DNA of 37,487 bases from Methanolobus sp. (GTDB lineage: Archaea > Halobacteriota > Methanosarcinia > Methanosarcinales > Methanosarcinaceae): NCBI GenBank assembly GCA_021767785.1, contig JAASSR010000010.1, positions 1 to 37,487 on the forward strand, given 5' to 3'. Shown in pieces: positions 17,813 through 23,014 of this stretch; position 1 is the stretch's first letter; every line of letters starts with the position of its first letter. Under the pieces are notes generated by a model. It did no database searches, was not told the origin of the DNA, and saw nothing but the letters and a program-made list of their open reading frames with translations. The translations under genes and the position numbers were made by a program.

Positions 17813-17921
17813 CATGTTCATATTGTATTCATCCGGAAGAAATTATTCCTTTGATAAGGTGGAACCTGGGTAATCAGATCACAGCAGGTTTTATCCGGAG
17901 ATCTACCTCCACACTTCCCTT

Positions 17922-17957
17922 GCCAGTGACTCTAAACTGGCGATTTTATTTTTTAAT
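17922..17957 (+). terminator. stem-loop with T-rich tail
   Basis: GCCAGT (17922-17927) pairs with ACTGGC (17936-17941), followed by GATTTTATTTTTT. It probably ends the MtaA-like transcript before the membrane protein gene. The T-rich, AT-rich tail may also include promoter elements for the next gene. Confidence 0.5.
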
Positions 17958-17985
17958 TAACATACACAAAAAAATCGAGGTCACT

Positions 17986-18828
17986 ATGATATCCCAATTG
18001 AGAGTATTTCTAGATACACGAAATCTTCAAAGTTACTTTTCCCCATACTCTCTTGTCAGTACAATTGAAGAAAAAACTAAACTACTGATCAACAACCCGC
18101 AATATTTTTTCTTCTTCATGCTTTCTGTGATATTCGGAGTTCTTATATATTACCGCAATACTGTGGATGAGATCATACCGACAATAGTTCTTGGTGTCTT
18201 ATGGATACTTTTCTGGAGGAACAGCGAGCAAAAAGGAAGAATATTTCTTGTAATAGCTTCACTATTTGGATATGTACATGAGTTACTTGGTGTAAGATAC
18301 GGATATTTTACATATCTCGGTGGTTTCATAGGCGGTTCTCCAATATGGCTGATACCAGGTTACGGAACAATATTCTGGTCATCTTACAATCTCTGGAAAC
18401 GATTTGAAGAAAAGTATTCAGAGAGAAACTGGTTCAATTTTACCAACAAGTTTGCAATCATAAGTCTTGCAGCAGTGTTTGCCGCTGATTATCTCATATT
18501 TGACCTTTCCACTAATATAGTAGGTATACTGATAAAATTCACCCTTGCATTCATGCTTTTCAGAACATTTGAAGGTTTAAGACTTGCTTATTTCGTGGCA
18601 TTCTTTACGGTCCTTACAGAACTTAGCGGTGAAATTCTTGGTACTTGGTATCATCCGGATTTCTCGCTCATTTCCCTTATGGCAGGATATGTATTCCTTC
18701 TATGGGTTTGCCTTACGATAAATGAATTTGCAAAGGGCAAAAACAGAAGGACCACCAGAGAATCAACAGCTGCTGTCGTTCTTACTACATTCTATATCCT
18801 GTCATTACTTGGACTTATATCAGTATAA
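17986..18828 (+). CDS. polytopic membrane protein (possibly carotenoid-hydratase/DUF422-like)
   Basis: A 280-residue integral membrane protein with about seven to eight hydrophobic segments. The ATG at 17986 is preceded by GAGGT at 6 nt; a longer frame from 17851 has no start signal and would cover a terminator. Conserved-looking polar positions occur within membrane segments: FGYVHELLGVRYGYF, GSPIWLIPGYGTIFW, and ELSGEILGTWYHP. This pattern of Glu/His near Gly-Tyr-Phe and W-IP recalls the bacterioruberin-type hydratase (CruF/DUF422) family, but I am not sure. It is first in a plus-strand operon with an aldehyde dehydrogenase (39 bp gap) and a short-chain dehydrogenase, suggesting lipid or isoprenoid aldehyde/alcohol metabolism. 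Confidence 0.7.
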   Translation: MISQLRVFLDTRNLQSYFSPYSLVSTIEEKTKLLINNPQYFFFFMLSVIFGVLIYYRNTVDEIIPTIVLGVLWILFWRNSEQKGRIFLVIASLFGYVHELLGVRYGYFTYLGGFIGGSPIWLIPGYGTIFWSSYNLWKRFEEKYSERNWFNFTNKFAIISLAAVFAADYLIFDLSTNIVGILIKFTLAFMLFRTFEGLRLAYFVAFFTVLTELSGEILGTWYHPDFSLISLMAGYVFLLWVCLTINEFAKGKNRRTTRESTAAVVLTTFYILSLLGLISV

Positions 18829-21110: not shown

Positions 21111-21907
21111 TGGATTTGGAAATCGAACAAAAGGAGAAGATAAACTGTAAATTATTGTTATCTGAAACAGGACAGAACTGTCGCAGACCAGTGAAAGGAG
21201 AGAATGCAAGTGAAAAGGCAAACTGTCTGGTATGTGGAGATGAGATCAACTATCTTAACCAGCCGATCAAAGGAATATGCAACTATTGCGGATGCGAAGA
21301 AGAATCCTATTTCATCTGCAAGAACGGTCATTTCGTTTGTAATGAATGCCACAGCAAAGATGCTTTGAAGGTTATTGAAAATGTTTGTCTGAATACTGAT
21401 CTGCAGGATCCCATGGAGATCGCTGAAAAGATAATGGAACATCCTGCTATCCATATGCACGGACCGGAACATCACGCTCTTGTACCGGCAGTTATTGTGA
21501 CTGCTTATCAGAACCGGATAGGTGAAAAAAAACAAAAGAATACTCTTGAAGCAATCAAACGTGGAAGCAAGATACCCGGAGGCTATTGCGGACTTTACGG
21601 TGCCTGCGGTGCAGGTCTTGGAGTGGGTATTGCAGTAAGTATCCTGCTCGAAGCCACACCACTCACACCTGATGAACGTTCCCATGCAAACAGGGCAACT
21701 TCAATAACCCTGAATTCCATTGCAGAAGCCGGTGGCGCAAGATGCTGTAAAAAAGCAACCCGTATTTCCCTGGATGAAGGAATTAATTATCTCTCAGAAT
21801 TGTTTGATCTTGACTGGTACGAAAAGATAGGTATTCCATCAGCTTGCAATTATACACAGTATAATAAAGAATGTGACAGGAATTGCAGCTACAAAAGTGA
21901 AAGATGA
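21110..21907 (+). CDS. DUF5714 Cys-rich protein
   Basis: A 265-residue protein with an N-terminal zinc-ribbon-like part (CLVCGDE, then CNYCGCEEE, FICKNGHFVCNECH) and a C-terminal domain with GGYCGLYGACGAGLGVG, GGARCCKKA and a terminal CNYTQYNKECDRNC. The Gly-rich CGACGAG segment and later cysteines recall the C-GCAxxG-C-C redox family. It matches, from memory, DUF5714 proteins of methanogens, whose function is not known. The ATG overlaps the SDR stop by one base, so it is in the same operon. In other organisms C-GCAxxG-C-C proteins occur near the AMP-ligase and radical SAM genes that appear here in the next, convergent operon. Confidence 0.7.
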   Translation: MDLEIEQKEKINCKLLLSETGQNCRRPVKGENASEKANCLVCGDEINYLNQPIKGICNYCGCEEESYFICKNGHFVCNECHSKDALKVIENVCLNTDLQDPMEIAEKIMEHPAIHMHGPEHHALVPAVIVTAYQNRIGEKKQKNTLEAIKRGSKIPGGYCGLYGACGAGLGVGIAVSILLEATPLTPDERSHANRATSITLNSIAEAGGARCCKKATRISLDEGINYLSELFDLDWYEKIGIPSACNYTQYNKECDRNCSYKSER

Positions 21908-21938
21908 TCTGCAAAACGAATTAGGAATATAAAAAGGT

Positions 21939-22157
21939 GGTCACAAGGTAATGAAGTTTGTTACGGGATCGGGCTTTAATCCGTCCTGAATGTCGCTTCA
22001 TTTTTAGCTACGCGTTGGTGAAGTTTATTTCAGGATCAGGGTTTATTCTGCCCTGAATTTTGTTTCATCTTAAATACGCGTTAATGAAGTTTGTTTCGAG
22101 ATCGAGTATTACTCCATCCTGAGAGTTGCTTCATTATACAGCTTATTCCCTGTGACC
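21939..22157. repeat. three tandem 51-nt hairpin units inside an outer inverted repeat
   Basis: Units at 21951-22001, 22018-22068 and 22084-22134 start at 67- and 66-nt intervals. Each begins RTGAAGTTT and ends TTCAT, giving an outer ATGAAG/CTTCAT stem (weaker in unit 2), and each has an inner stem, clearest in unit 2 (TCAGGG/CCCTGA). The spacers share ACGCGTT. The whole array is flanked by GGTCACA (21939-21945) and TGTGACC (22151-22157), so the region could fold as a four-way, cloverleaf-like structure. It lies between the convergent DUF5714 and ABC ATPase genes. It may be a transcript end, a non-coding RNA or a small mobile repeat. Nothing else is seen in 21908-22249. Confidence 0.7.
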
Positions 22158-22249
22158 AAGTAATAATATGTAATCAATGATATTAATTGCTGACGGTTGT
22201 ATAACTATAAATTATTTTTTATGAAAAGTATAACCAGATATTCATATTA

Positions 22250-23014
22250 TCATGTCAGAAGTCTGCTGAGAATATGGCTTTTCAGCATTGAGAATTCACT
22301 GGTGCCTGTAAGTGAAATCGGACGAGGCCGTTCAAAAGGAACAGCTATCTGCTCAATGATGCTGCCGGGCCTTTTACTCATTATGCATACACGGTCTGAA
22401 AGCAAAAGAGCTTCTTCCACATCATGAGTGATAAAAACAATGGTCTGTTGGTTATTTTCCCAGAGCTGAAGCAGGAGTTGTTGCATATTGTAACGTGTCT
22501 GGGCATCCAATGCCGCAAAGGGTTCATCCATCAACAGGACTTTGGGACCGAGTACCAGTGAGCGGGCAAGGGCAACTCTTTGCTGCATACCTCCTGATAG
22601 CTGTACAGGATAATAATTTCCAAAGCCTTCAAGACCCACAGCTTCCAGGTATTCTAAAGAGAGAGTTTCAGATTCGTCTTTCTTTTTACCCAGCTGCTTC
22701 AGTCCGTACATAATGTTATCTTTGACATCCAGCCACGGAAACAGTACCGGAGATTGGAACACAACCGCCCTTTCCGGAGATGGGCCGGTTATAGGTTCTC
22801 CACAGCAGATCGCATATCCGCTGTCCACCTCCTCAAAACCCGCAAGGATATTCAGAAACGTTGATTTGCCACAACCGCTTGGACCCAGAATAGTAACAAA
22901 TTCACCTTCCCTGATCTCAAAATGAATATCTTCAAGGACATGCAAAAGATCATTCTCATCCGGTATGGAAAAACTCTTGCTTATATCGGTTGCGGAAATA
23001 TTTGCTGCTTTCAT
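22250..23014 (-). CDS. ABC transporter ATPase, SsuB/TauB/NrtD type
   Basis: A 254-residue ATP-binding subunit. Walker A GPSGCGKST (44-52), Q-loop FQSP, signature LSGGMQQR (139-146), Walker B VLLMDEP and the ITHD switch His are all intact. The FPWLDVKDN segment after the Q-loop is typical of the nitrate/sulfonate/taurine class. It overlaps the permease gene by 4 nt and is the last gene of the minus-strand operon. It powers uptake with the permease and lipoprotein that follow in this list. Confidence 0.92.
   Translation of the reverse strand: MKAANISATDISKSFSIPDENDLLHVLEDIHFEIREGEFVTILGPSGCGKSTFLNILAGFEEVDSGYAICCGEPITGPSPERAVVFQSPVLFPWLDVKDNIMYGLKQLGKKKDESETLSLEYLEAVGLEGFGNYYPVQLSGGMQQRVALARSLVLGPKVLLMDEPFAALDAQTRYNMQQLLLQLWENNQQTIVFITHDVEEALLLSDRVCIMSKRPGSIIEQIAVPFERPRPISLTGTSEFSMLKSHILSRLLT

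Follow-up and report, generated by a model that had tools for sequence, protein, structure and literature searches.

A probable structured RNA gene with a variable array of tandem hairpins in Methanolobus and related Methanosarcinaceae

The window, a 37,487-nt stretch of the Methanolobus sp. contig JAASSR010000010.1, contains between the genes for a DUF5714 protein (plus strand, end at 21907) and an ABC transporter (minus strand, 22250-23014) a set of tandem and inverted repeats, which raises the question whether this element is a terminator, a small repeat element or a gene for a structured RNA. The earlier note, in which the plus strand was read and no strand was assigned, had described three tandem self-folding 51-nt hairpins with a period of 66-67 nt inside an enclosing stem. 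The repeat copies lie at 21949-22002, 22016-22069 and 22082-22135 (spacing 67 and 66), the second and third sharing 74% and 81% identity with the first, and each hairpin alone beats nearly all dinucleotide shuffles (plus-strand z = -3.0, -3.6 and -5.3); the description thus holds for the hairpins, with the unit extended from 51 to 54 nt. It holds likewise for the enclosing stem, which is formed by 21939-21948 and 22148-22157 and covaries among homologues. For the element as a whole, the folding z-score is -5.4 on the plus strand and -7.1 on the minus strand, where no shuffle is equally good. We consider it very probable that the element is an independently transcribed gene for a structured non-coding RNA. 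The RNA of about 225 nt would be read from the minus strand, starting from its own TATA promoter (22180-22186) at about 22158 and ending at a T-run (21931-21935). The predicted gene comprises the following features, where R1 is a covariance model of the unit built from alignment A3:

22190..22224, minus strand: upstream promoter box, on the minus strand ...ATAGTTATACAACCGTCAG, in homologues ATRACCGNCAGT (alignment of 29 loci)
22180..22186, minus strand: TATA box TTAATAT, with the predicted start about 24 nt downstream; the T/A columns vary little or not at all over 29 loci
about 22158-22159, minus strand: predicted transcript start, at the closing stem
22148..22157, minus strand: closing stem 5' arm GGTCACAGGG, from the sequence; cognate arms beat 5000 permutations
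22082..22135, minus strand: hairpin unit 1, the 5'-most (R1 match 22081-22151, 1.2e-10)
22076..22081, minus strand: linker ACGCGT, which may pair with 22010-22015 and enclose the middle hairpin (minimum-energy fold)
22016..22069, minus strand: hairpin unit 2 (R1 match 22015-22083, 1.5e-12)
22010..22015, minus strand: second linker ACGCGT (minimum-energy fold; linker covariation p = 0.098)
21949..22002, minus strand: hairpin unit 3, the 3'-most (R1 match 21948-22017, 3.2e-16), best conserved of the units across Methanolobus
21939..21948, minus strand: closing stem 3' arm CCTTGTGACC, from the sequence, pairing permutations and fold
21931..21935, minus strand: T-run CCACC-TTTTT, likely the terminator (T-run statistics over 56 loci)

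The RNA is placed on the minus strand because the promoter, the T-run and the wobble pairs all agree. In the aligned loci, the flank to the right of the window element reads, on the minus strand, as a ATRACCGNCAGT box, followed by a TATA box and, up to the closing stem, by a TACATA stretch; this conserved archaeal promoter (ACCGNCAGT box plus TATA) is found in the window at about 22180-22224. A sequence-only model of the promoter flank, R2, matches the window at 22146-22224 (E = 8.4e-16) and has matches in 57 of the 112 genomes of the family Methanosarcinaceae. Every Methanolobus genome with units also has the promoter, and the nine genomes without units are without the promoter as well. The window's genome contains box plus TATA at this locus only, with at most one mismatch allowed. 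A regulon sharing the promoter box was considered for this genome and rejected, with 11 sites at up to two mismatches versus 17 for a backward control. The predicted distance of about 24 nt from TATA box to start is near the 19-22 nt reported for Methanolobus psychrophilus (PMC5378194). The TATA box of the window, TTAATAT, deviates from the family consensus TTTATAY, which counts against the RNA-gene reading. Two of the homologous loci, L077 and L079, display a tandem duplication of the box-plus-TATA segment AACGCCAGTATTTTATAACCGCCAGTATTTTATA in the promoter upstream of the array.

Within 35 nt past the closing stem, 47 of 56 loci have a run of four or more T on the RNA strand, compared to one of 56 on the opposite strand. 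Furthermore, 203 distinct units read on the minus strand contain G.U pairs in 206 cells versus A.C in 70. Of 33 distinct closing stems, 27 are more stable when read on this strand, and in the window the U.G pair of the closing stem on the minus strand corresponds to A.C on the plus strand. Given its location downstream of the ABC transporter gene on the minus strand, convergent with the DUF5714 gene, and its T-run between the gene ends at 21907 and 22250, the element might be thought to represent an elaborate terminator and nothing more; however, terminators would not be expected to contain a promoter, and homologues retain both structure and promoter in unrelated neighbourhoods, which makes this explanation extremely improbable. 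The earlier proposal that the structure exceeds the needs of a terminator and resembles a structured RNA is instead supported, both by compensatory changes in the unit helices and closing stem and by the conserved promoter of its own.

Covariation in homologous regions had been named in the earlier note as a check, and pairing there is kept by compensatory change, not lost. In 40 Methanolobus units, the 11-pair structure has 95.5% of cells paired, compared to 17-55% when the partner is slid, and 16 cells are changed on both sides versus a shuffled mean of 4.3; for the 203 distinct units from all genera, 3022 cells are paired versus 2957 in shuffled data (sd 4.9), pair 20:31 being A-U in 106 units and G-C in 72. 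The arms of the closing stem also change together (GGTCAC/GTGACC, GTTCAC/GTGAAC, GGTTAC/GTAACC), such that cognate arms have a mean of -17.9 kcal/mol against -15.0 for permuted ones (sd 0.42), with none of 5000 permutations as good. Outside Methanolobus, an inner frame stem, CUGUAA/UUGCAG, gave p = 0.0027. Such shuffle-based tests are inflated by relatedness, although relatedness alone does not explain the strand bias. The term 'cloverleaf', as used initially, fits the three-unit state of this locus, but that is merely one state of an array with 1-12 units; moreover, the stem between linker 1 and linker 2 around the middle hairpin is predicted by folding (it is part of the minimum-energy fold), whereas its covariation is only suggestive (p = 0.098).

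The family is confined to Methanosarcinaceae among the genomes searched. BLAST yielded matches in 19 of 27 Methanolobus genomes, once or twice per genome, including a chance 27-nt match (L019); R1 units are present in 18 of the 27 and in 54 of 112 Methanosarcinaceae; over the whole order, with 186 genomes in 27 genera, the total is still 54, and the four genera concerned are all Methanosarcinaceae. One of these genera, a large one (g13) carrying family arrays, is probably Methanosarcina. The nine unit-negative Methanolobus genomes have no significant match even at lax thresholds and, therefore, the gene is dispensable, which counts against the favoured reading. At each locus, the DNA contains 1-12 units in one common frame with a period of about 65-69 nt. 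Unit-plus-linker cassettes (AGCTATAAGGTGGAG... then TATGGCGTAAACTGCGA) recur across species and array positions (L069, L070, L075, L076). Two 12-unit arrays, L144 and L152, contain one spacing of only 25, which marks a partial unit or an overlapping one and may reflect unequal recombination inside the array. A single-unit locus, L138 (G025:C15:652564-652698), has a decayed 3' closing arm (TTTTTGACCATC) and is perhaps a dying copy. In L194, a short ORF of repeated STVNP units, probably not a gene, is located 2.1-2.5 kb upstream of the array.

The gene is independent of its neighbours. Neighbouring genes vary between species and are shared within small subclades (L007, L008, L011 and L021, for instance, adjoin a gene of one cluster, PEP synthase-like), which suggests vertical inheritance with occasional relocation. 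A search for a conserved partner gene found none, in that neighbours cluster only in small subclades and differ among the larger genomes. Inverted ends, the presence of at least two loci in some genomes and neighbours that differ between species would also be expected of a mobile or repetitive, MITE-like DNA element with the closing stem as its terminal inverted repeats. We regard such an origin as very improbable: the conserved promoter lies outside the 'ends', wobble pairs are strand-biased, which is not expected of DNA ends, and some flanking genes are common to several species (clusters 6 and 0: L007, L008, L011, L021). Moreover, the copies are few and diverged, with a single locus in the window's genome, and neither near-identical dispersed copies nor carriage by a mobile element was observed; phages and plasmids gave no match, nor did viral contigs match the unit motif. 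A genome search, including the unit covariance model, likewise recovered no further unit outside this locus in the window's genome, although relatives do carry more. The designation as a small repeat element is accordingly apt for the tandem repetition of the hairpins and fails for the locus, which is found once in the genome and bears no sign of recent mobility.

If the element is an RNA gene, what could the repeated hairpins do? In the model that we favour, one frame, consisting of promoter, closing stem and T-run, encloses 1-12 copies of one hairpin; the RNA would be transcribed and stable, and the units of a locus would presumably lie within a single transcript. Strong conservation is seen in the outer stem, the GGA/UCC helix, the U and AAA of the loop and the internal loop on its 5' side; the apical loop consensus is NURAAA, and the internal loops CAAAUUCA / CGUAAUANA are conserved. 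Hairpins bearing these loops could serve as identical docking sites for a candidate protein, and the copy number of the unit would determine how much of it the RNA can hold as a sponge or scaffold, in the manner of bacterial CsrB RNAs. In keeping with docking, conservation over 203 units falls on the same bases of the loop and internal loop, the remaining loop bases vary freely, and the number of units ranges from 1 to 12. The search for a partner protein, a target or a conserved neighbour found none, and it is the design of the RNA that suggests docking. By analogy with CsrB, which does so for CsrA, it is a serious possibility, to which we assign slightly less than an even chance, that the hairpins offer a partner identical docking sites in variable number; the RNA gene and the docking sites, taken together loosely, seem to us moderately likely.

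Two other modes of action have to be weighed against docking. The loops are A-rich and single-stranded and might pair with mRNAs, making the RNA a trans-acting antisense sRNA similar to sRNA162, sRNA154 and sRNA41 of Methanosarcina mazei; the intergenic sRNAs that have been studied in Methanosarcinaceae are, indeed, known to act by such pairing (PMC3510493, PMC5867862). However, a single target would not need many near-identical loops, and only positions 22, 23 and 29 of the loop are free to vary, whereas almost every one of the 203 units has the U and AAA. Antisense action thus appears unlikely, and, judged from the sequences, this pattern of conservation in every unit fits better with one partner recognizing each hairpin. 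Alternatively, a uniform unit length and short connecting linkers of a conserved type, together with the existence of single-unit members, could point to a precursor from which cleavage in the linkers frees individual hairpin RNAs, with the array serving to produce many copies. This is more doubtful still, since the closing stem is kept even around a single unit, and a mere carrier would not need one.

The frame is not restricted to the 52-nt unit. Some promoter matches in g13 and g5 that lack units lead to loci with a like promoter, whose closing stem is related (TTGGTCCATAGGG ... TATGGATCAC) and encloses 4-22 tandem mini-hairpins ACTTRANTRAGK over 173-454 nt (L124-L135, L141, L142), and at other loci (L123, L136, L137, L140) the frame surrounds one or two units. 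The frame is therefore conserved and the array variable. This second class occurs in larger genomes, probably those of Methanosarcina. As a tentative extension, which we consider possible though not likely, both classes may together form one modular type of archaeal RNA gene, whose inherited frame of promoter box, closing stem and T-run accommodates interchangeable tandem arrays, of the 52-nt hairpin or of the mini-hairpin, that expand and contract, with the number of repeats tuning a partner that is sequestered or assembled.

If the docking model is true, methanogens possess a family of long structured RNAs, so far undescribed, in which the number of binding sites is set by the number of repeats, and the family very likely includes a genetically tractable Methanosarcina. 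We know of no sponge RNA of this design from archaea, and the family would thus make RNA titration of proteins in archaea directly testable. Rfam 15 has no family at the gathering threshold in the window (at lax E-values, the best weak matches score 16.5 bits, for a threshold of 99, and 15.8 bits, for a threshold of 39) and no match over the arrays of relatives. ARAGORN finds no tRNA in the window, and C/D-box, kink-turn and anti-Shine-Dalgarno readings were sought by eye and dropped. Elsewhere in the window, a predicted membrane protein (17851-18828, plus strand) is encoded beside aldehyde dehydrogenase and short-chain dehydrogenase genes, and part of it (17971-18825) matches no Pfam family.

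The open papers searched contained nothing on this family, and the RNA may already stand in the sRNA catalogues of M. mazei or M. psychrophilus, unrecognized as a member of a tandem-hairpin family. Similar to sRNA162, sRNA154 and sRNA41 of M. mazei, it would be an intergenic structured RNA from the same archaeal family; these sRNAs have few stem-loops and antisense targets, with no tandem array described (PMC3510493, PMC5867862), and are set apart from the present family by published descriptions rather than by sequence comparison. Methanolobus psychrophilus R15 possesses cold-induced sRNAs with a 'cold box', which by description resemble the family in belonging to the same genus, being conserved and sharing a common upstream box before the promoter (PMC5378194). 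Two single-contig Methanolobus genomes of 3.1 Mb, G006 and G020, are without the family in lax searches with the unit model. As is expected of an archaeal intergenic sRNA gene, the family has its own promoter, TATA box plus upstream element, at the predicted transcript start. The closest parallel in design comes from the bacterial CsrB, CsrC, RsmY and RsmZ, which are likewise independent small RNA genes with many similar hairpins whose number varies between species (1-12 units per locus here, as counted in DNA), and which act by protein titration, the mode proposed here by analogy. CsrA is, to our knowledge, not known in archaea. In CsrB and RsmZ the GGA is exposed in the loop, whereas here it lies in columns 16-18 and pairs with UCC, the loop being NURAAA, and for this reason membership in the CsrB family is not claimed. 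In contrast to CsrB-type RNAs, moreover, the family described here combines an archaeal promoter with a closing stem around all of its hairpins.
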